From: Antedon mediterranea
Lineage: Eukaryota; Echinodermata; Crinoidea; Comatulida; Antedonidae
Reading direction: 5' to 3'
NCBI RefSeq assembly: GCF_964355755.1
Contig: NC_092670.1
Location: 14,631,201-14,695,200, forward strand
Length of the DNA stretch: 64,000 nt
Part shown: positions 33,140 to 52,495 of the stretch, piece after piece
Position numbering within the stretch: position 1 is the first letter of the stretch
Layout of the letters: each line of letters begins with the position of its first letter
Program-made: the position numbers and the translations under genes
Notes under the pieces: generated by a model
What the model was told of the DNA's origin: nothing
The model's input: the letters and a program-made list of their open reading frames with translations, nothing else
The model's database searches: none

Positions 33140-33149
33140 ATCAACCTCA

Positions 33150-33560
33150 CTCACCATATTCATAAAATAGTGATCAAACTTCAACTTACAGGTAAGTCTC
33201 GTTTAATCTTTCTATTTTATTTCATATTTATTACGTTCGGTGCAAACTGAGATGTTTAAAGCCATCTCTGGTGAACATGATACATAAACAGTCAATCGTG
33301 ACATTAGTCAAATGCATCATGCTGTATTTTGTAATAATCTCTGAAGGTCTTTTCAGAATTCCAACCTGCGGCAGCCATAATTTCATTTATCGGGACTGAC
33401 ATACGCCCTGCTGCTGAAGAAGCTGCTGCTCTAGTAGAGTGTGCCTTAAACAAAGCGTCAACGCCGGATTCATGTAAAAACTCTTTTAACCATCGTAAAA
33501 CTGTATCTTTAGAAACGGGGTTGTATGGTTTTATGTAGCTTAACAAAAGTTGGTTATTAA
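33150..33560 (-). pseudogene. DIRS-like 3' fragment with tyrosine recombinase C-terminus
   Basis: The minus-strand frame 33555-33304 encodes the recombinase end with SKDTVLRWLKEF, AHSTR (His-x-x-Arg), AAGWNSEKTF (Trp) and RDYY (nucleophilic Tyr region). Downstream, 33155-33195 matches the internal complementary region of the full DIRS copy (CTTCAACTTACAGGTAAGTC). It is a truncated relative of the element at 43921-48889. Confidence 0.82.
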
Positions 33561-34235
33561 CACCTCTTTTGTTGTTGATTTAATGTTGTAGGAACACACA
33601 TATTTAAAGTGGTGACCCCGACGTGATTCGTATGGACTAGTGGAGTATTCATCTGTAGGCTGTACTTGTATGTAACATTTCTATTATTAATTATCGATAC
33701 TCGGCCTATCTAAGCCTATCCTGTATACGAGGCAGCAAACAGCATTGATCGTACTATATATATAGTACTACGTACAACTATTTTTTTAAACATTTCTGTT
33801 ACACAGTTTACTTTTAATTATAAGGTAGGCCTAAAACAATTATTAATTTTTTGAGGCGAAAATGGAAGATCCTCCTCCAGCCGAAGCAGCAGTTGCTGTG
33901 GATCAAGCGGGAGGTAATGCTGGGGTACCAGTCGCCACGCAACGCGCATTACCTTTAGCGGCATTTACCCTCAATTAAGCTACCACCATTTTGGGCTAAC
34001 GATCCCCGCGATATGGTTTGCCCATGTGGAAGCGCAGTTTGCAACTTGCAATATTACCACGGAAGCTACGAAATTTGCCTATATCGTGGCGTCGTTACAG
34101 CCTTCGATCGTCCAGGAGGTACGTGATCTGCTCTTAGCTCCTCCTGCTGAGGGTCCATACAGCAAGTTAAAGGAAGAGTTAATTAAGCGGACCTCCGATT
34201 CGGAGAAGAAACGGTTGCACCAACTGCTCACTACG

Positions 34236-39327: not shown

Positions 39328-40158
39328 TGTACTGATTTCTAATCAGTAGGTTAATTTGTATAGCGCCATCGTGCGGGTCCTTTTGGACAGATATGAGAAC
39401 GTGATATTAATTGTTTGTTTAGAGGACATAATAATCAACAAAGTTGTTATGTTGAATTTGAGCTACGATACCGGAACCGGTAATGCTTTGTTATAGATGT
39501 TTTTAGCTTTAGTTATGATACATTTAATATTCGTGACTCCTTCTTGCTTAGGCAGATTGGCATTATTTAGATGGCGAGGTCGTTTAGACTCGCCGCCTAG
39601 AGCATGGAGGGTTGGAGTGGCATGGCCGGAGCAGGTTGTCATGGGTGTCGCTGTTCTGTGGAGCCCACCTTTATGCCCTCAGTTTGTTTGTTTACATTGT
39701 TTATTTAAATTGTTATTTACTGATTATTATCATTACGTTTACTGATAGCAGAATGATTGTAGAAGTTATGACGTGAACTTTAAGATTACTTTATAGTTAT
39801 TTAGTCTATTTAAGACATGCAAATTTGCATCATGTATCACACAGTTAGCTGCACGTCATGGTGTGTTGTGCACATCTGAGCGGTCGTTCCGCTTGACGAA
39901 GCATAGATTACGTCATGTATGGTTGAGATACGTCATTGTTCTCTTCCTAAGTTTTAATGTTGTATTTACCTCAGTTTGAGGTTGTATTTGCTGATTGCTA
40001 TTACTTGTTTGTTTTCAGTAATTTACGGCTAGAGGCTAGGAGGCTAGAGGCTAGAGATTAGAGGTTAGAGATAAATGAAGAAATAAAGGCTGTAATACAG
40101 CATAAATGAGCCAGTAAATTCGTCGGTAGCGTTTCATTCTTAAGTACGTGTACTTACA
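39328..40158 (+). repeat. BEL 5' LTR
   Basis: 831 bp, TGTACTG..TTACA. It contains the perfect palindrome ATGCAAATTTGCAT (39817-39830, two overlapping octamer motifs), CRE-like ACGTCA sites near 39912 and 39932, and AATAAA near 40083 as a likely polyadenylation signal. An 82-codon open frame occurs in both LTRs but resembles nothing known. Confidence 0.95.
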
Positions 40159-40202: not shown

Positions 40203-42221
40203 ATGCCCGCTAGCACATCTGATCAAAAGGACAAGCTGAAACACTCCAGAAGAGTAAAAAGGGGAGCATTCACTAGAGCCTTAAATGTATTAAAAGCAGT
40301 GACAGCTGAAGAAAATGAGAAGGAAGTAGTAGAGAATGCTCTTGAAAGACTGCTAAATGCGTCTAATGGAGTAGAACAAGTTCATGATGCACTCGTTGCA
40401 ATACTTGACACTGAACCTGAATTAGAAGAAGCAGAAACGTATATTGAAACTGTGTTATTAGAGTTCACACAAGGTCTGCAAATAGGGAAAAAATATTTAG
40501 CAGATATCAAGGCAAGGGAGACATCAGTGGTGGATACTACTATCAGCAACAGGGAGGATGATGACCGAAACGTAAGCAGCAATGCAATTGCGAAATTCCT
40601 AATGAAGAAAGATTTGATCAGCAATGGTTTGATTAAATTTGATGACAGTCCATTAAATTACAGATCATGGATGGGTACGTTTAAGGCAATTGTCAAAGAG
40701 CTATCCTTGAGTGCACGAGAAGAGTGTGATTTGATGATTAAATGGCTAGGTCCTGAATCGAGGAAAATAGTAATGAGGTTAAGGGCGGTTCATCTAGACA
40801 ACCCTGAAAATGGCCTAAAGGACATGTGGAAACGCTTGAATGAAGAGTATGGTGCCCCAGAGTTGATTGAGAGTGTTCTATTAAAGAAATTAGAAACCTT
40901 CCCGAGGATCAAAGATGACCATCAGCTGAAGGAAATGTCAGACCTGTTAAGGGAAATTGAAGTAGCGAAATCAGATAAAAGACTACCAGGATTGGCCTGC
41001 TTTGATACCGCAAGGGGTGTCAATATGGTGACAGAAAAACTATCATACCAACTACAAGACCGGTGGCGTACAACCGGAGCAAGGTATAAAGCCGATAAAG
41101 ATGTGTCGTTCCCGCCATTCAATGTTTTTGTAGAGTTTGTTGCAAAAGAGGCCAAGGTACGTAACGACCCGTCATTTCAGATTACATCTGCATCAAAAAG
41201 CCGTGATAGCCATAAGGGAAATAAATCTGGTGATTCTGCAAGAGCTTATAGTACTCAGTCCAAGCAGAAAAGGTGTTTTTGTTGTGACGGAAATCACACA
41301 GTGGAAGGATGTGATAAATTTAAGGGTTTAGAATTGAAACAGCGAGAAGAGCTAATAAGAAGGAAAGGATTATGTAGAGGTTGCTTGAAAAAAGGGCACA
41401 TATGGAGAGAATGTAAGTGCCGAAGGATTTGTGATATATGTAAAGGCGAGCACCCTACTATCATGCATAGATTTTCAAACAGTACTGCTGAACCACCTGT
41501 AGTATCTTCAAACAGTGCAGCTGAACCACCTGTAGTATCTTCAAACAGCGCAGATAAACCACCTGTAGTATCTTCAAACAATTTGTGCAGCAATACATGT
41601 GACAATGAACAGTGTTGCTCTTCAATAGTGCCTGTGTGGATTGAATATGAGAAACAGGAAAGCATAACATACGCCCTTCTTGATGAGCAGTCAGACTCCT
41701 GTTTTATCTCAGCAAAACTTGCACAAGAATTAAAAACCAAGGGTGTCCGCATACAACTGGAAATATCAACAGTACTTACAAAGGGATGTGTTACTTCGGA
41801 GAAGATAAATGGTTTGAAGGTGAGAGGACTTAAAGAAGGGAAAACTATAAGTTTACCAGCAGCCTATACTCGGGATTCCATACCAGTATCAAGACACCAG
41901 ATTCCTACTCCAAACTCAGTGAATGGTTGGCAGCATCTACAGAAAATAAAAAATGACTTAAGTCCACTTCTTGATATTGAAGTTGGTCTAATAATAGGCC
42001 ACAATTGTTCTAGTGCACTGATGCCAAGGGAAGTGGTACAAGGTAATCATGACGAAGATCCGTACGCGATTAAGACCTTATTAGGATGGGGTGTGGTAGG
42101 TGTCATTAAGGCACGGAAGGGAGAACCCACCAACAATGTGAAGCAATTCTCCTTCAAAACAACTACTAAAGAAGTAATAAAGGTGCTGGAAAGAGATTTC
42201 TTGGATGATCGTATAAATTGA
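40203..42221 (+). CDS. BEL Gag-protease
   Basis: A 672-codon frame from the first Met after the LTR. It has an N-terminal capsid-like region (DUF1759 type, about residues 140-310), zinc-binding Cys/His clusters about residues 356-425 (CFCCDGNH, CRGCLKKGHIWREC, CDICKGEHPTIMH), three short SSNSAAEPPVV repeats, and a protease segment near residue 490 (LLDEQSDSCFIS, the A17 counterpart of D-S/T-G). It packages RNA and processes the polyprotein. It ends at a TGA (42219-42221), after which the same frame continues as RT. Confidence 0.92.
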   Translation: MPASTSDQKDKLKHSRRVKRGAFTRALNVLKAVTAEENEKEVVENALERLLNASNGVEQVHDALVAILDTEPELEEAETYIETVLLEFTQGLQIGKKYLADIKARETSVVDTTISNREDDDRNVSSNAIAKFLMKKDLISNGLIKFDDSPLNYRSWMGTFKAIVKELSLSAREECDLMIKWLGPESRKIVMRLRAVHLDNPENGLKDMWKRLNEEYGAPELIESVLLKKLETFPRIKDDHQLKEMSDLLREIEVAKSDKRLPGLACFDTARGVNMVTEKLSYQLQDRWRTTGARYKADKDVSFPPFNVFVEFVAKEAKVRNDPSFQITSASKSRDSHKGNKSGDSARAYSTQSKQKRCFCCDGNHTVEGCDKFKGLELKQREELIRRKGLCRGCLKKGHIWRECKCRRICDICKGEHPTIMHRFSNSTAEPPVVSSNSAAEPPVVSSNSADKPPVVSSNNLCSNTCDNEQCCSSIVPVWIEYEKQESITYALLDEQSDSCFISAKLAQELKTKGVRIQLEISTVLTKGCVTSEKINGLKVRGLKEGKTISLPAAYTRDSIPVSRHQIPTPNSVNGWQHLQKIKNDLSPLLDIEVGLIIGHNCSSALMPREVVQGNHDEDPYAIKTLLGWGVVGVIKARKGEPTNNVKQFSFKTTTKEVIKVLERDFLDDRIN

Positions 42222-42224
42222 AAA

Positions 42225-43920
42225 ATGATATCAGTCGAGGACACAAAATTCTTGAACGCTATGCAAAAAGGATGTAGAACAGAAAATGGACATATCCAAC
42301 TGCCATTACCATTTAAATTGGAAATTCCCAAGTTGCCTAACAACAAAGTAGCTGTTGGTAAGAGGTTAATTCAGCTGAGACACAAAATGATAAAACAGCC
42401 ATCATTCGCTGCAAAATATAAAGAGTTTATGACTAGTATCATAGACAAAGGTCAGGCAGAAAAGGTACCTACAGAAGAACTTGTGTGTGAGTGTGAAAAC
42501 GTATGGTATATTCCACATCATGGAATATTTCACCCTAAAAAAACAGAAAAATTGAGGGTAGTTATGGACTGTGCATCACGCTACCAAGGTATATCCCTAA
42601 ACGATATGTTACTCACTGGTCCAAATTTAACTAACAATCTAGTGGGTGTGATGCTAAGGTTCAGACAAGATCGCATAGCAGTCGTTGGCGATGTTGAAGG
42701 AATGTTCCATCAGGTTTTAGTGGCGCCGGAGCATCGAAACTTTTTGAGGTTCTTGTGGTGGCAACATGGTAATTTAAATGAAGAGCCCACTGATTACCGA
42801 ATGCTCGTTCACGTTTTTGGAGCGGCTTCATCTCCTGGCTGTGCCAACTATGGATTTAAAAAAGTAGCAGATTTGTATGAAAACGAGAATGGGACTGATG
42901 CTGCTGAATTCGTCCGCAGAGGATTCTACGTGGATGATGGCTTAAAGGCTGTTCCAACGATCGATGCTGCTATCAGTTTGATAAAGAGAACTGTGGATAT
43001 GCTTAGCAGAGGCGGCTTTAGGTTGCACAAATTTCTCTCTAATTCTCCAGAGGTATTGAAGTCCTTACCCGCCACGTCAATTGCTTCCAAAGTAAACCAG
43101 TTGGACTTGAGTGATCTTCCTACAGAGCGGACGTTGGGTATATTGTGGAATGCAGCGGAAGATACCTTTACATTTGAAGCCAATTTGAGAAATAAGCCAT
43201 CAACTAGAAGAGGTATTCTGTCTACGGTGAGTGCTATATTTGACCCTCTTGGGTTTGTTGGTCCTTACGTTCTGTTGGGTAAACGCATATTGCAGGAGAT
43301 TTGTGCTGGTGGTGCTGAATGGGATCATCCGGTTGGTGAAGAAACCCTTAGATCATGGGAAGAATGGAAAAAGCAATTGGTGTACTTGAAAGACGTCAGT
43401 ATTGAAAGATGTTATAAGCCAATAAGCAATAGAAATTCAGAAATTGTATCCACCGAGCTACACCATTTTAGTGATGCGAGCGAGAAAGGATACGGTCAGT
43501 GTTCATACTTACGACTTGTTGATAAAGAAGGTAAAGTGAAGACATCACTCTTAATTAGCAAATGCCGTGTAGCTCCTAAGAGAATGATAACTATACCAAG
43601 GTTGGAACTGGCAGCTGCAGTGGTATCGGTTAAGGTTGCATCCATGCTGAAAGAAGAGATAGAGTATCCGAACGTCACTGAGTATTTCTGGACTGACAGC
43701 CAAGTAGTCATTGGATATATTAATAATGAAGCGAAAAGGTTTAACACCTTTGTAGCTAATAGGGTGCAACAAATTCACGATGCGAGCACTAGTGGTCAGT
43801 GGCACTACGTAAGCAGTGAGGATAATCCCGCTGATATTGCATCACGTGGAATGGATGCTGAGAAATTGAGAGATTGCGAGAGGTGGTGGCATGGACCAGC
43901 TTTCTTAAACCGTGAAAAAT
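42225..43920 (+). CDS. BEL Pol: Pao reverse transcriptase and RNase H
   Basis: Same frame as Gag. It shows Pao RT blocks LRVVMDCASRYQG, AVVGDVEGMFHQV (first catalytic Asp), HVFGAASSPGCANY and FYVDDGLK (YVDD near 42927), then RNase H elements HHFSDASEKGYGQ, IPRLELAAA and FWTDSQVV. It copies RNA to DNA and removes the template. The frame is interrupted at 43920/43921 by the DIRS element and runs on a few codons into it. Confidence 0.93.
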
Positions 43921-44234
43921 TGAAAATTAAACGAGACTTACCTGTAAGTTGAAGTTTAATTGTAATTCTATGAGTCATCAGCCGGGAGTGGAGGAGTTGT
44001 ACGAGAGAGAGTACCGCGCATGCGTATGCCAGTCTTTAGAGCAGAATACAGGCTCAGTGAGGAGAGTGGAGGAGTCTGGGTCAGGGCCAACCTACGTAAG
44101 GGAGGGCGTACAACTCCTCCACTCCCGGCTGATGACTCATAGAATTACAATTAAACTTCAACTTACAGGTAAGTCTCGTTTAATTTTCAATTCTATTTCG
44201 TCATCAGCCTATGTCGCTACGGAGTAGTACGAGA
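43921..44234. repeat. DIRS left end and internal complementary region
   Basis: 43918-44003 is perfectly complementary to 44107-44192. 44189-44234 is complementary to the right end (48845-48889). The internal region therefore carries left-end and right-end complements joined head to tail, matching the circle-junction template proposed for DIRS replication. Confidence 0.93.
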
Positions 44235-44531
44235 CTTTAGAGCACAGTGAGCCAGTATTCGCAAAACGGTGGAAAAACAGATTAATAAACAAATTAACAG
44301 TCATTCAAGTCGTTTACATTCTTTCAATAGAAAACACTTTATTACCACAAAACTATGTAGTACGATACTTTAGTCTGTAAATAATTAACTGAAATCACTG
44401 TATTTCCTGTATTATACACTGCTTACAGGAAAAATAACATTCAGGTATAATAACACTGTAAAACATACCTTTGGATAGTAACTATAAGAAACATTAACTT
44501 TAAACAATGCAAACATGGTTTCAATAACACT

Positions 44532-45728
44532 TCATTTCTCGCTTGAGCATGACTCAAGAACTGCAGTACCATAATTAAAAGTAGGAGGTGCTATACGATT
44601 ATAATATTTCTGAAAAGTTTCCTCCTTAGCCCAACCAGCTGACTTCATGATGTTGTTTAGGTCAACATTTTTATTTAGAAGATGAGAAGCTGAGGCTGAT
44701 CTGGTACTATGGGGCTTATATTGGACTGTATCTATACCTGCATTACACATGAATTTCTTTACCCAGTGGGACACTGTATCCTTTGAAATGGGCTTATGTG
44801 GGGAAATGTAACTTAACAGTAGCTGTGCCTTATCCTGGCGAAAAACACTTGTACGTGAAAGATATTCTGTCAACAAAGACACAATGCATAATTTTTTGTC
44901 AGATGGAAACGCATTGAATTCCAATGGCTTTTGATGTGAGCCAACCCGTGTATGCTTTAATTTTTCAGTTACATAGAAAACAATTTTATGATCACTCTTT
45001 TCCATATTTGCAATCGAGAGATTTAATATCGTCTGGCACCTTTGACCACTTAAAAGACACAATAAGAACGCCAATCTTTGTGATATTTCTTTCAGCGATG
45101 ATTCTTTGATTGATGGTTGCCCTCTGATGTAATCTAGGGCAACATTGACATTCCATGTATAACTGTACCTTGGTAAAGATGGTCTTAATTCAAAAATACC
45201 CTTCATAAAGCGTTTCACAATAGGTAATTGACCAAAAGATGCATACTCTTGACCTACAGCAAAAAGAGAAGACAACATACTTCTAGCAGTATTAATAGAA
45301 CTGTACGATAAACCTGAATTAAACATATCTGATAAAAACTCAAGTGGTAATGTCACATGTGGTGAAATAATGTCACAATTTTTTCTCTCACAAAATTCAA
45401 ACCATCTGTTAGCCATAGTTTGATATTGAACCTTTGTTCCTGCTCGCCACGATGCTAGTATGATCTCTATTGTGCCTGAGGTAAATCCCTTTGATAATAA
45501 GCTTCTCCTGATACATGACATATGAGCAGTCGTAGTTTCTTGTGTAGAGGATGAATCAATCCCGGTTGTGCTGGCATCAACAGAAGGTCTGGTGCCGGTT
45601 GAATTTGTGTTGCTTCCTTGAGTATCCCCAGCAGCATGGGGTACCACGATTGGGATGGCCAATCTGGTACTACTAGAATTCCCTGCGCCTTGTCTTGTAT
45701 TATTTTCTGTATAACCCTGAGAACACAA
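44532..45728 (-). CDS. DIRS tyrosine recombinase
   Basis: A 398-residue intact frame. The N-terminal ~70 residues are Ser/Thr-rich, followed by a SAM-like core-binding region (about 85-180) and the catalytic domain: SGQRCQT (Arg230), EKLKHTR (Lys region ~257), HSTR (His340, Arg343), SAGW (Trp366) and QKYY (Tyr375/376). It integrates the circular DNA intermediate. Its first 262 nt overlap the end of the RT frame in another phase, a normal DIRS arrangement. Confidence 0.93.
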   Translation of the reverse strand: MCSQGYTENNTRQGAGNSSSTRLAIPIVVPHAAGDTQGSNTNSTGTRPSVDASTTGIDSSSTQETTTAHMSCIRRSLLSKGFTSGTIEIILASWRAGTKVQYQTMANRWFEFCERKNCDIISPHVTLPLEFLSDMFNSGLSYSSINTARSMLSSLFAVGQEYASFGQLPIVKRFMKGIFELRPSLPRYSYTWNVNVALDYIRGQPSIKESSLKEISQRLAFLLCLLSGQRCQTILNLSIANMEKSDHKIVFYVTEKLKHTRVGSHQKPLEFNAFPSDKKLCIVSLLTEYLSRTSVFRQDKAQLLLSYISPHKPISKDTVSHWVKKFMCNAGIDTVQYKPHSTRSASASHLLNKNVDLNNIMKSAGWAKEETFQKYYNRIAPPTFNYGTAVLESCSSEK

Positions 45729-47417
45729 TTAAAAGGGGGAAAGCAATAGAATAATATATTTTGCCATGATATTGTAAACGCATCAATATCTGTTGCATAT
45801 GGATCTTGCCTGTAAGAGATGTATTTATCAAATTGTTTATTTAGTCTTGATGCAAATAAATCAATTGTGGGTAGAACATTAAGTTTCGTTAGAACCTCAC
45901 ATAAGGTTTTAGAATTTAGCATCCATTCTGTATCTATATTCTGTCTTCGAGATTCAAAATCAGCAGTAACATTAAGCACTCCTGGTATGTGGGCTGCAGT
46001 AATCCAAATATTATTACTTTCACAAAATGCCCAAATTGTCCGTGTAATATCATTACAAGGGTCACTGTGACATGTTCCCATATTATTTATAATGGAAACA
46101 GCAGTAGTATTGTCAATCATGAGCTTTACCTGTTTACCTAGAACTTGTTTGGAAAAGGATTTCAGGCCAAAATATGCAGCTAATAGCTCTAAATAATTTA
46201 TATGGTATTTTCTGTCATTTACTGTCCAATGACCACCTGTAGCGGCTTCACCCATTGCTGCCCCCCAACCAGAAAGAGAGGCGTCTGTGTAAATAGTTAA
46301 ATCAATTGCTAAATGTCCAATTACATTAAAACATTGTGGTAGGTTTATCAGCCACCATTGTAGATCCTCAATAGCCGAGGACGACAAGCACATTTTAGAG
46401 TCGAAATTTCCTCTGGCTGTCTTTAAAGCATTAATCTTATCCCTCTCCACTGCCCGATAATGGCATTTACCATATTGTACAGAAGGGAAGCTTGACACCA
46501 TATACCCAATAATCTGTGCTATCTCTCGAATTGTTGGAGTAGATGTTGCCAATATCCTGGTAATACAGTTAGTAAGTCGATCAATTTTTGGACTTGTCAA
46601 AGTAATTTTCATATTACCTGAATTAATGTTAAAACCTAAGAATGTGATACTTTGTGTAGGTATAAAAACTGATTTTTCAGGATGTATGACAAAACCTAAA
46701 TTATCAAACATCTTTATTGTTTCCATAATAGTATCAACGCATCTCTTGTATGTGGATCCTACTAATAGTAAATCATCAATATAGGCACATAAAATATGTC
46801 CTCTCTTTCTCAGAAAACTAAGTGGTGGTTTTAAAAGTTTGGTGAATGTTCGTGGGCAAAAGGAAAGACCATTTGGATATGCTGTAAATTTATAAAGTTC
46901 TCCCTGATAGTGAAATTTTAGATACTTCTGAGAATTCTTGTGTATTCCCACACTATTAATATGCATCCTTTAAGTCAATAGAGGCCATCCAACAATTCTT
47001 CGTTATCATACTTAATGCGGTATTGATTGTGTCCATTTTAAAGTGTTTATATTCAATATATTTGTTTAGTGATTATAAATTTAAGATTATGCGTACCCTA
47101 TTATCTTTCTTAGGAACTGAAAAAATTGGAGATACATATTCCCCTGGTTCATATGCACATTTAACCAGTACACGTTTAGTTAACAGTGTCTGTATTTCAT
47201 GTTCTACTAAGTTGATGTGATTCTTTGCAATAAAATTTGATGGACGTGTAATGGTTTGTGGTGGAGGACTTAAAAATTGTATTATTTCACCCTTCACTGA
47301 ATTTAGGATTGTATGATCAGAAGTTAGTTCTTGCCATTTTTCTATAAATTTTTTCAATTGGCCACCAACAAAATGTTCTACTCGATAGTCTAAGTATCGT
47401 TTAAGATCATTTAACAC
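45467..47417 (-). pseudogene. DIRS reverse transcriptase/RNase H, two lesions
   Basis: The N-terminal part (47417-47073) ends in RT block 1 (FSVPKKDNRVRIILNL) at a TAA. The following bases keep RT similarity (ASIDLKDAY) up to about 46972, where a shift moves to the frame starting 46966. That frame (499 codons) has CAYIDDLL (catalytic Asp pair ~64-65), RNase H residues in TDASLSGWG (Asp228), NYLELLA (Glu260), MIDNTTA (Asp285) and TADFESR, then the DIRS-specific tail DLFASRLN..SYRQDP..DAF..FPPFN. The tail is the region described as Dam-methylase-like in some DIRS elements. One stop plus one frameshift make it inactive as it stands. Confidence 0.9.
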
Positions 47418-47440
47418 AGAGTGTGCCTTTACCTGTGAAT

Positions 47441-48644
47441 CTATCGCCGGTAATTCTTGAACATCCTGCCTCTTTTTCCCTGGTACTGTCCGGACTGTCC
47501 CCTTTGTCCGCTGGCGTGGGGATTTACCTGGTGTTGTTGATAGTTTTGTCGATATGTCTGAGGGTTGTACCCTCTCTGAGGTAAAAAAGGCCTTCTCTGT
47601 GTAGTGTATGGGGCATATCTGCCTACTTGTCCCTGGTTTTTCATAATCCTCCCTTCCAGTTTTGAATCAGTCATAACCTGTTTTAAGTCATTGCCAAATA
47701 GCATTCTTTCAGGTTTGTTTGTTCTTAAACATGCATTTTTGAGGTCTGTGCTTAATAGCGGTCTTAATGTGTCCCTCCTTTTATACGATAACTCTTTGTT
47801 GACAAAACCCAAGAGGGCTACAGAGTCAAACAGGCGGGTAGCTGTTAGCTTATAATCAGGAGCCTTTTTGGATTCTTTCGCCTTAAGCATATCTTCGATA
47901 CAAATAGCAATGGCACTTGTGGCCTTTACGACTGAGTCCTGTAGGGCTGCTACACGCAGATCCCTTTGTTTATTAAAAGACTTCAGTCCATTCCAAATTT
48001 GGTCATTTACTTTTGGTACATATACTTCTTTTAGATTTCCCGGTATCTTATATCTCTCAATGATAGCCTTGCGTTTATCTAGACTCAGTGCAGATTCAAA
48101 TTTAGCATTTATTATCTTTGCGATTTTTTCCGATATGTCAGGCCCAACAGTGTTGTCAACACATAGGGACGTATCTATTAGATTAAGGATGGAGTCTACA
48201 TTTTCCTCCTCCACCTCTTCAGCCTCTTCAAATTCATCCCCTCCGAATATGCTCAAGGCCTCGTCCTCCGATATGGGGTGATTATTTGAGTTATCATTAG
48301 AGGTATGTGCTGCATGTGCAGTATTTGATGCTTCCTGTGAAGCTGGAGTGTATGCTTCCTGTGAAGCTAGTGTGTATGCTTCCTGTGTGAAGCTGGTGTG
48401 TTAATTGCTTCATTTGAAGACAATTGAATAGGCTTGGCTCTACTAAGCTCGCCCAACAGTGTATTAGTCTCTGTCATACTACGCTGCATTGCAGCTAACA
48501 TAACACATTTACAAGCGATGAGCCCTTCGCTGTTGGCGATAGCGGGGGGTCCGTCTCTTCATCGCCTACTACGGCGGGAAGCGCGCCGGCGGGAAAACCC
48601 TCGCTTGACCTAGGCGTAGTAGAAATGTAATCACTGTTCTCCAT
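47441..48644 (-). pseudogene. DIRS ORF1 (Gag-like), frameshifted N-terminus
   Basis: The main frame 48256-47441 is acidic at its start and has a central segment LKEVYVPKVNDQIWNGL and a basic Gln/Gly/Arg-rich end (RGQSGQYQGKRGRMFKNYRR) suited to RNA binding. Similarity extends to a Met at 48644-48642 (MENSDYISTTPRSS), but the region between is broken, including a 2-bp expansion in short tandem repeats of GCTTCCTGTGAAGCTGG near 48330-48405. Confidence 0.75.
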
Positions 48645-48889
48645 AGAGAAAACAAGAAATAACCTGTTCTAAAAAACGGTCTGTAGTGTCTATATACTTA
48701 TCTGAATTGACCAGTCTAGATGGAAATTCTACAAAAACTTTGAAAAACTGTAGTTTGGAAATTTATTCTTCTATCTGATAAGTGAAAATGACTAGCAGCA
48801 TGTACATGAACGGTACAACTGGCATACGCATGCGCGGTACTCTCTCTCGTACTACTCCGTAGCGACATAGGCTGATGACGAAATAGAAT

Positions 48890-49231
48890 ATACAATCAAC
48901 CAGTTACATATTGAAATAAAAGATGACGATGTGGAAGTAAGGCAAGCTAAGGTGTTTGCAACACAAGTGAAAACTGAACTGATTCCAGACATGTTAAGAA
49001 GAACTTCCAGTTGGCACAAGGTACGACAAATACTTGCAAGGTGTTTAATCTTTATTTATAAATTAAGAGGATGGAAGCGATCCGGAGAAGTTACGGTAGA
49101 AGACCTAACTAGAAGTGAAAAATTGATAATTAAAGCTGTGCAATACAATGAATGGAAGGATTTGAATGCGCTGGTGAAGTTAGACCCAGTCGTAGACAAC
49201 GATGGACTGCTGCGTGTAGGAGGTCGTTTAA
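48890..49231 (+). CDS. BEL Pol: segment between RNase H and integrase
   Basis: Continues the BEL frame after the DIRS element: RRTSSWHKVRQILARCLIFI and EKLIIKAVQYNEWKD, then GLLRVGGRL, the conserved lead-in to the integrase zinc-binding region. It is cut at the TTAA (49228-49231) by the next insertion, with the frame resuming correctly at 50338. Confidence 0.88.
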
Positions 49232-50333
49232 AATGGACCTGAAATGGAATTTCGATTTTCAAGAAATTCACACATGTTATTTAAATGTATCAAATTAACA
49301 CAAGCCCATACAAATAAAAACTAAATGTATAGTATTTTGAGAAAAAACGAAATTTTAAGATACCTTGGTAAATTAGCGAAAGTTACTCACGCCATTGCAA
49401 TATTCTATTTCAACGGCCGTCGGGAGCATCTATATTCACGACGGCGATATCGATCGAGAGCGTGTATGCCGCCCGATAGTCCGTGAATGATCGACGGCCT
49501 GGAAAGATACGCGAAGCGTTGACACTAATACTAATTCAATATATAATGTTGTTGAAATATAGTGCCCTAAAATGTACTTTGTTTGTTCTAAAACCCGAAT
49601 TTAGAAGGCCTAGGCCTACCTCCCAAACCTTTACTAATACTAGGCCTAGGCTAGGCGGTGCCCAGCGCGCGGAGTCGATCCACCCACACGTTTCATGTGC
49701 ATCCAAAGCGATATCAACAACTTGCTGCTCATTGTCAAGCCAAAGTAAAATATGAATCAAATTCGTTTTCGAACTGCCTGATTCGTGAACAAATAAATTA
49801 CCATCTCATATTACTAATTTAATTCTGCTAAACTATAAACTAAAGAAACTTAACACATTTTAGCAGTATAAATTACAAACGAATACAAAATACACGAACG
49901 GAAAATATGGATACGCATCATTGCACACGGCGCTGTATCCCGGACAACGTTGCCAGGCTAACGTCGGTATTGCCAGAAAAAAACCGTTGATTTGGAGATT
50001 TTAAATCGTCATTTACTCGATGACTAACCGTTTATACGGTAATAATTTTATCTAAAAAAATTCTAAATACGTTTCTGCAAAAGCACAAGCATTTTTTAGA
50101 AAATACTCCATAGATTTCAAGAGTTATAGCCAAAAAACTGCAAATTGTCCATTGGAGGGATAGGAATATATTCGCAAAGTGACGTCACCCGCGAATTTTT
50201 TTGATTTTCAAATGGGGCTTTCCCCAAAAGGGCGAATTTATATTTTATAACAATATACATTCTAGCAACACCTAATAGCCCCCAAAACATCATTCTAAAA
50301 TGAAAAAAATCGAAAATCCATTTCAGGTCCATT
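49232..50333. mobile_element. 1.1-kb TTAA-flanked TIR element inside BEL pol
   Basis: Inverted ends AATGGACCTGAAATGGA are flanked by TTAA at 49228-49231 and 50334-50337. Similarity of the ends extends inward (TTTCGATTTT). The BEL coding frame is continuous across one TTAA when the insert is skipped, which fixes the borders. No transposase seen; probably piggyBac-type by target site only. Confidence 0.88.
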
Positions 50334-50337
50334 TTAA

Positions 50338-51525
50338 AGAAAACTAATCTACCAGAAGAAATTAAACATCCAGTAATCATCCCTGCAAAAAGTGATTTAA
50401 CCTGATTAATAGTCAGTCATTACCATAATCAAGTGTACCACCAAGGTAGAGGGATTACTCTTAATGCGGTGCGAGCTGCTGGGTTCTGGATGATAGGTGG
50501 CGTGGCATCTGTCTCGAGATATATTCACGACTGCACGGTATGTCGTCGACTTAGACGACCTACAGAACTCCAGCGTATGGCAGATCTACCAGTCGAAAGA
50601 GCCGAGGCAGGTCCTGCCTTTAGTTACTGTGGCGTAGACTTCTTTGGGCCGATCATTGTAAAAAATGGTAGAAAGGAACTTAAGCGCTATGGTGTGCTAT
50701 TTACATGTTTGGTGTCTCGAAGTGTGCACCTGGAGATAGCCAGCTCGTTATCGACAGATTCCTTTATGAATGCCTTTCGGCGATTTTTATGTAGGAGAGG
50801 ACCCGTCAGACAAATGAGGTCCGACCAAGGAACCAATTTTATTGGTGCCACAAGAGAGCTGAAGGAAGCAGTAAAAGAGATGGATCAAGAGGCAATTCGC
50901 ATAAATATGCTAAGGTTAAATTGTGATTGGAAATTTAACACACCCACTGCAAGCCATCACGGAGGAGCTTGGGAGCGTATGATCAGAACAACCAGAAACA
51001 TTTTTGATAGCTTAATGCTTCAGCATAAGGCGTTATTGAATGATGACATGCTGAGCACATTTATGACAGAAGCAGAAGCAATAATTAACAGCAGACCTTT
51101 ATGTGCTACTAACGATGCATCTTTAGAACCGTTGACACCATTTTACTTGTTAACGATGAAAAGCAGTGCGGTGTATGCTCCGCCAGGAAACTTCAAAAGG
51201 GACGGGAAGTTTAGCCGGAAGCTCTGGAGAAGAGTCCAGCACCTGGCGGATACGTTTTGGAGTAGATGGCAAAAAGAATATATTATCAATTTACAGCAAA
51301 GACAGAAGTGGACTAAGAAGAAAAGAAACATAAGCATTGGAGATATTGTACTTTTGTATGAAGAAGGTGTCCCGAGAAATTATTTGGGAGCTTGCTCGAG
51401 TTACCAATACCAAGCCGAGTGATGATGGTTTAGTGAGAAGCGTCACTGTCTTCGTTGGACGAAGAAGAACAACATTGGATAGGCCAGTAACCAAGATTGT
51501 GTTGTTGGTTCCTAAAGATCAGTAA
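50338..51525 (+). CDS. BEL Pol: integrase
   Basis: Resumes with NLPEEIKHPVIIPAKSDLT, a TGA at about 50404, then HYHNQVYHQGRG (zinc-binding His), CTVCRRLRRP (Cys pair), and the DDE core: CGVDFFGPI (Asp), RSDQGTNF (Asp), HHGGAWERM (Glu). A C-terminal FWSRWQKEYI..GDIVLL domain follows. Near 51375 the frame shifts by one, and the remainder (ELARVTNTKPSDDGLVRSV) ends at a TAA at 51523-51525. Confidence 0.9.
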
Positions 51526-51650: not shown

Positions 51651-52495
51651 TGTACTGATTTCTAATCAGTAGGTTAATTTTTATAGCGCCATCGTGCGGG
51701 TCCTTTTGGACAGATATGAGAACGTGATATTAATTGTTTGTTTAGAGGACATAATAATCAACAAAGTTGTTATGTTGAATTTGAGCTACGATACCGGAAC
51801 CGGTAATGCTTTGTTATAGATGTTTTTAGCTTTAGTTATGATACATTTAATATTCGTGACTCCTTCTTGCTTAGGCAGATTGGCATTATTTAGATGGCGA
51901 GGTCGTTTAGACTCGCCGCCTAGAGCATGGAGGGTTGGAGTGGCATGGCCGGAGCAGGTTGTCATGGGTGTCGCTGTTCTGTGGAGCCCACCTTTATGCC
52001 CTCAGTTTGTTTGTTTACATTGTTTATTTAAATTTTTATTTACTGATTATTATCATTACGTTTACTGATAGCAGAATGATTGTAGAAGTTATGACGTGAA
52101 CTTTAAGATTACTTTATAGTTATTTAGTCTATTTAAGACATGCAAATTTGCATCATGTATCACACAGTTAGCTGCACGTCATGGTGTGTTGTGCACGTCT
52201 GAGCGGTCGTTCCGCTTGACGAAGCATAGATTACGTCATGTATGGTTGAGATACGTCATTGTTCTCTTCCTAAGTTTTAATGTTGTATTTACCTCAGTTT
52301 GAGGTTGTATTTGCTGATTGCTATTACTTGTTTGTTTTCAGTAATTTACGGCTAGAGGCTAGGAGGCTAGAGGCTAGAGATTAGAGGTTAGAGATAAGAG
52401 GTTAGAGATAAATGAAGAAATAAAGGCTGTAATACAGCATAAATGAGCCAGTAAATTCGTCGGTAGCGTTTCATTCTTAAGTACGTGTACTTACA
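51651..52495 (+). repeat. BEL 3' LTR
   Basis: 845 bp, nearly identical to the 5' LTR; the extra length is one additional 14-bp copy of the AGAGGTTAGAGATA-type repeat near 52395. A purine-rich ATGGGAGG tract precedes it as the likely polypurine primer. The octamer palindrome is at 52140-52153. Confidence 0.95.

Follow-up and report, generated by a model that had tools for sequence, protein, structure and literature searches.

Integration of a DIRS1-like retrotransposon and its relatives in the genome of the crinoid Antedon mediterranea is conservative, triplet-matched and, at target sites that mismatch the element, reciprocal. The window (the whole stretch of 64,000 nucleotides of contig NC_092670.1 that was analysed) contains a mobile element, a DIRS1-like tyrosine-recombinase retrotransposon that has entered a Bel/Pao element. 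Very probably, its internal complementary region (ICR) is a fixed inverted copy of the joined element ends that templates or splints the termini on the way to a circle, and the circle enters the chromosome by conservative exchange at a matching triplet.

Anatomy of the element

Counted with the triplets at both borders, the element measures 4,972 bp; it splits a Bel/Pao retrotransposon lying on the opposite strand. The features of the locus are as follows (window coordinates):

40203..43917, plus strand: host Bel/Pao ORFs upstream of the insertion, 40203-42221 and 42225-43917 (Peptidase_A17, PF05380)
43918..48889, minus strand (sense): DIRS1-like element, borders from ICR matches and seven empty-site paralogues
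43918..43920, no strand assigned: border triplet AAT, low end on the plus strand (sense 3' end)
43918..44003, minus strand: "left" terminus in plus orientation (sense 3' end), an extension of ~48 bp and a divergent inverted repeat; exact complement of 44107-44192
43993..44033, minus strand: conserved part of the inverted terminal repeat, pairing with 48818-48858 (98%)
44107..44234, plus strand: ICR, with 44107-44192 the reverse complement of the left end and 44190-44234 that of the right end
44532..45728, minus strand: tyrosine recombinase ORF, 398 aa as listed, with HSTR motif (Phage_integrase, PF00589)
45467..47470, minus strand: pol, with reverse transcriptase (RT; YIDD), RNase H and a weak Dam-like methyltransferase
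47441..48256, minus strand: Gag-like ORF, no family above cut-off
48818..48889, minus strand: "right" terminus in plus orientation (sense 5' end), with 48845-48889 the exact complement of 44190-44234
48887..48889, no strand assigned: border triplet AAT, high end on the plus strand

The recombinase is recognized by its PF00589 match (E=2e-19) and the RT by RVT_1 (E=4e-12) together with its YIDD motif, while RNase H (E=3e-5) falls slightly short of the Pfam cut-off. The methyltransferase signal that follows RNase H (PF05869, Dam, E=0.015) is below the cut-off and lies where it is expected. In the window copy, an in-frame stop near 47090 and a frameshift or stops near 46960 disrupt the upstream part of pol. 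Tyrosine recombinases act by strand exchange between overlapping sites.

The left part of the ICR (44107-44192) matches the reverse complement of the left end at 86 of 86 bases, and its right part (44190-44234) matches that of the right end at 45 of 45, mismatches setting in at base 46; both exact runs are far above chance. Against this ICR, ends from other families in the genome give exact runs of no more than 32 (left) and 9 (right). The two stretches share 44190-44192, which reads ATT on the plus and AAT on the minus strand, and the same AAT stands at both borders. The first-pass annotation had described the ICR as the complement of the left end joined base for base to that of the right end, and its coordinates prove exact; the triplet that it saw at the junction and at both insertion borders is indeed there (44190-44192, 43918-43920 and 48887-48889), and mismatches at the junction, which it had named as refuting, were looked for and are absent.

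Several features place the element among DIRS1-like retrotransposons: inverted terminal repeats; two ICRs near the 3' end that overlap on a 3-bp circular junction identical to both border triplets; a terminal extension of ~48 bp at the sense 3' end that is complementary to the ICR alone and missing at the other terminus; and integration at a matching triplet without target-site duplication (seen at 11 insertions for which vacant sites exist, of which four are diagnostic). At the termini, only inverted repeats and no split direct repeats of the PAT/Ngaro type were found.

The core of the 3' extension carries, on the sense strand, CAG/GTAAGT (43933-43955 and 44155-44177), within the last 40 nt. 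This is a perfect 5' splice-site (U1) consensus, which is kept in families A and C (see below) and reads CAG/GTAAGC in family B; a putative role would be the suppression of splicing or polyadenylation.

The surrounding Bel/Pao sequence continues at 48890, as judged from the empty-site copies. Direct repeats at 39328-40158 and 51651-52495, 12.3 kb apart and identical over their first 300 nt, are probably its LTRs. A further insertion of ~1.1 kb in the same Bel/Pao element (49227-50338) has 33-nt inverted termini (ATGGACCTGAAATGGA...) and TTTAAA on its flanks, and other Bel/Pao copies carry the vacant site GGTCGTTTAAAGAAAAC; it is probably a non-autonomous DNA transposon of the TTAA type.

Families in the genome

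Searches of the genome (354 Mb, 18 contigs) revealed seven further close copies arranged as the window element (L002-L008; eight in all, family A), and two further families, B (L036-L039 and L042) and C (L043-L050), the latter with a subfamily C' (L040/L041). In all three families and the subfamily, the ICR fits its own ends best: exact runs against the own left end are 86 (A), 86 (B), 79 (C) and 80 (C'), and against the own right end 45, 45, 36 and 37, respectively, whereas right-end runs across families do not exceed 9 (15 for C versus C'). ICR and termini thus change together in each family, which is what templating of one by the other would predict. Within the extension, A and C share an identical 32-nt core (AAACTTCAACTTACAGGTAAGTCTCGTTTAAT), from which B differs at two positions; the remaining end sequence has diverged. 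This core may act as a signal for the recombinase or for replication.

In three family-A copies (L002 on C11, L008 on C8 and L004 on C1) the ends are separated by 8.5-14.5 kb rather than 5 kb, which suggests later insertions inside these copies. The window itself contains a truncated DIRS1-like fragment of family C (33144-33575) with an ICR carrying the same 32-nt core, apparently followed by the 3' end of a recombinase gene. Two family-C left ends, L083 (C9:5679009) and L084 (C9:5720683), share a common flank, have the border triplets ATA and TTA, respectively, and are missing their right ends.

Vacant and mismatched target sites

For 11 insertions, paralogues with the vacant site were available; the triplets match in 7 of them, and in the other 4 the target is one base off. 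The site of the window element is vacant in seven other Bel/Pao copies, which are identical over 153 nt and have a single AAT. Six more insertions with matched borders likewise have a single matching triplet in the vacant paralogue, AAT for L005, L008, L036, L037 and L038 and ATA for L043; the L036 site belongs to a repeat family with many matches. The search for vacant sites, from which L039 was left out as it lies in a tandem repeat, returned none for L002, L003, L004, L044 and L046, and the borders of L050 and L042, whose right ends were not found, are uninformative. The known target triplets of families A and B are AAT in 6 of 7 cases, against a window background of 3.4% (P about 1e-8), and none of the 11 targets differs from the element triplet by more than one base (for each, a background of about 25%). 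A single triplet at the matched vacant sites fits both triplet-matched recombination and a 3-bp duplication with strong target preference.

More telling are four independent insertions (DISCRIMINATING cases) in which the left and right borders differ by one base:

L006 (duplicated as L007): left AAT, right AAC; AAC in six vacant paralogues
L047 (duplicated as L048): left TTA, right ATA; TTA in two vacant paralogues
C11:9507702: left ATA, right ATG; ATG in one vacant paralogue
C1:24102849: left ATA, right ATG; in five vacant paralogues, TG follows an A-run with one A fewer, so that the third base alone is diagnostic

At all four sites, which make up the entire mismatched sample, one border has the target base and the other the base of the element junction. 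The left border comes from the element when position 3 is mismatched, and from the target when position 1 is. Mutation after insertion was rejected as the source of the mixed borders, as it would not recreate the target base every time. The pattern fits conservative reciprocal exchange with a switch between triplet positions 1 and 3, and would arise from replication of an unrepaired heteroduplex over a 3-bp overlap, or from a fixed crossover point. The site-matched recombination proposed in the first-pass annotation is upheld by the vacant sites with one AAT and by these mixed borders. Its expectation that other insertions of the element share the AAT holds at both borders of family-A copies with the exception of the AAC at the right border of L006/L007, an exception that supports the model because the empty paralogues also read AAC.

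Replication and integration mechanism

In the DIRS model, parts of the ends are missing from the transcript and are restored and aligned by the ICR, the cDNA circularises, and a recombinase swaps the triplet of the circle with a chromosomal one (Cappello 1985; Poulter and Goodwin 2005, both as summarised in PMC5633606). Every DIRS1-like element carries the ICR as a constant component (PMC3266345), and its presumed role is to template or splint the element ends. Following this published model, the ICR of the element studied here would restore or splint the two termini during cDNA synthesis, and the cDNA would close into a circle with the junction right end-AAT-left end. The insertion sites show that integration itself is conservative: the junction triplet is swapped with the same triplet in the target (at most one mismatch), and nothing is duplicated or lost. 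The exchange is presumably made by the element's own recombinase, with the crossover inside the triplet.

It is improbable that, instead, a linear cDNA with fixed ends inserts bluntly inside a preferred AAT-like triplet with no circle involved. This route predicts the same mixed borders, including the switch between triplet positions 1 and 3 at four of four sites, and, given a strong preference for the triplet, the borders alone are compatible with blunt entry between positions 1 and 2. However, it offers no explanation for the ICR, and the element encodes a tyrosine recombinase, an enzyme of strand exchange. Furthermore, circles have been reported experimentally for Dictyostelium DIRS-1 (Boesler 2014, as cited in PMC5633606), with no other case in the literature searched.

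Very unlikely is an ordinary 3-bp target-site duplication by staggered cutting, as in LTR elements or DNA transposons, as the origin of the shared AAT. It would account for one AAT in the vacant and two in the filled site, but the triplets do not vary freely from insertion to insertion, and the triplet is already inside the ICR. The mixed borders at four of four mismatched sites exclude it, since a duplication would put the target triplet at both borders, whereas one border has the element base. That the ICR arose in the window copy alone, when its ends were duplicated in inverted form by chance or secondarily, hardly merits consideration and was rejected: local inversion can yield perfect 86-nt inverted repeats, but the same layout recurs in the eight close family-A copies and, with different end sequences, in families B and C.

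The ICR had been put forward in the first-pass annotation as direct evidence for a circular intermediate. This is overstated: the ICR is a standing template that predicts a circle and records none, because every complete copy carries it whether or not a circle of its own has been seen. Among the best-scoring right-end and left-end matches in the genome searches, there was no tandem right-end/left-end junction.

Relation to known elements

The element is new and otherwise an ordinary DIRS1-like one, its anatomy being already known as textbook DIRS1: two ICRs overlapping on a 3-bp circular junction, plus a right extension (PMC3266345). It looks like the mollusc DIRS1 elements AcaDIRS1/2 (Aplysia californica) and LgDIRS1/LgDIRS3 (Lottia gigantea), which have ATT/ATT termini and an AAT junction as found here, the commonest type (Piednoel et al. 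2011, PMC3266345); the likeness rests on published anatomy rather than on sequence comparison, and the pol of the window copy is broken. According to the same source, the mollusc ICRs measure 45-88, 44-88, 39-86 and 42-86 (45-86 here), the right extension 48-49 bp (about 48 here) and the whole element 4.7-5.8 kb (4,972 bp here), and mollusc and window elements alike have rE only and no lE. Dictyostelium discoideum DIRS-1 shares the inverted termini, the ICR near the 3' end, the 3-bp circular junction, a tyrosine recombinase and the RT/RH/MT pol, of which the MT is a weak signal in the window element; unlike the window element, it has a TAA junction, a 304-bp conserved ITR and a 24-bp extension. 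The tyrosine-recombinase retrotransposons PAT, Ngaro and VIPER also have internal repeats coupling with terminal ones, but differ in that these are split direct repeats, without inverted termini and complementary internal region.

Implications

The model of DIRS replication and integration is often restated, yet is described in PMC5633606 as not fully proven experimentally. The most useful by-product of this analysis is the record of mismatched sites. Opinion is evenly balanced on whether the one-base-off insertions are natural records of DIRS strand exchange, in which the recombinase would tolerate one mismatch in the 3-bp overlap, the heteroduplex would be segregated rather than repaired to one parent, and the cleavage positions could be read from ordinary assemblies. 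The literature search, outside which much DIRS literature lies, returned no paper that sets mismatched DIRS borders against vacant sites, and no priority is claimed. Vacant sites and insertions at mismatched triplets provide a simple sequence test of the DIRS integration step, the template step is supported by the way in which the ICR of each family co-varies with the ends of that family, and both tests are applicable to any well-assembled genome that contains DIRS elements. In the crinoid, vacant and slightly mismatched sites reveal with unusual clarity that these elements insert by a strand swap at a matching three-base sequence.
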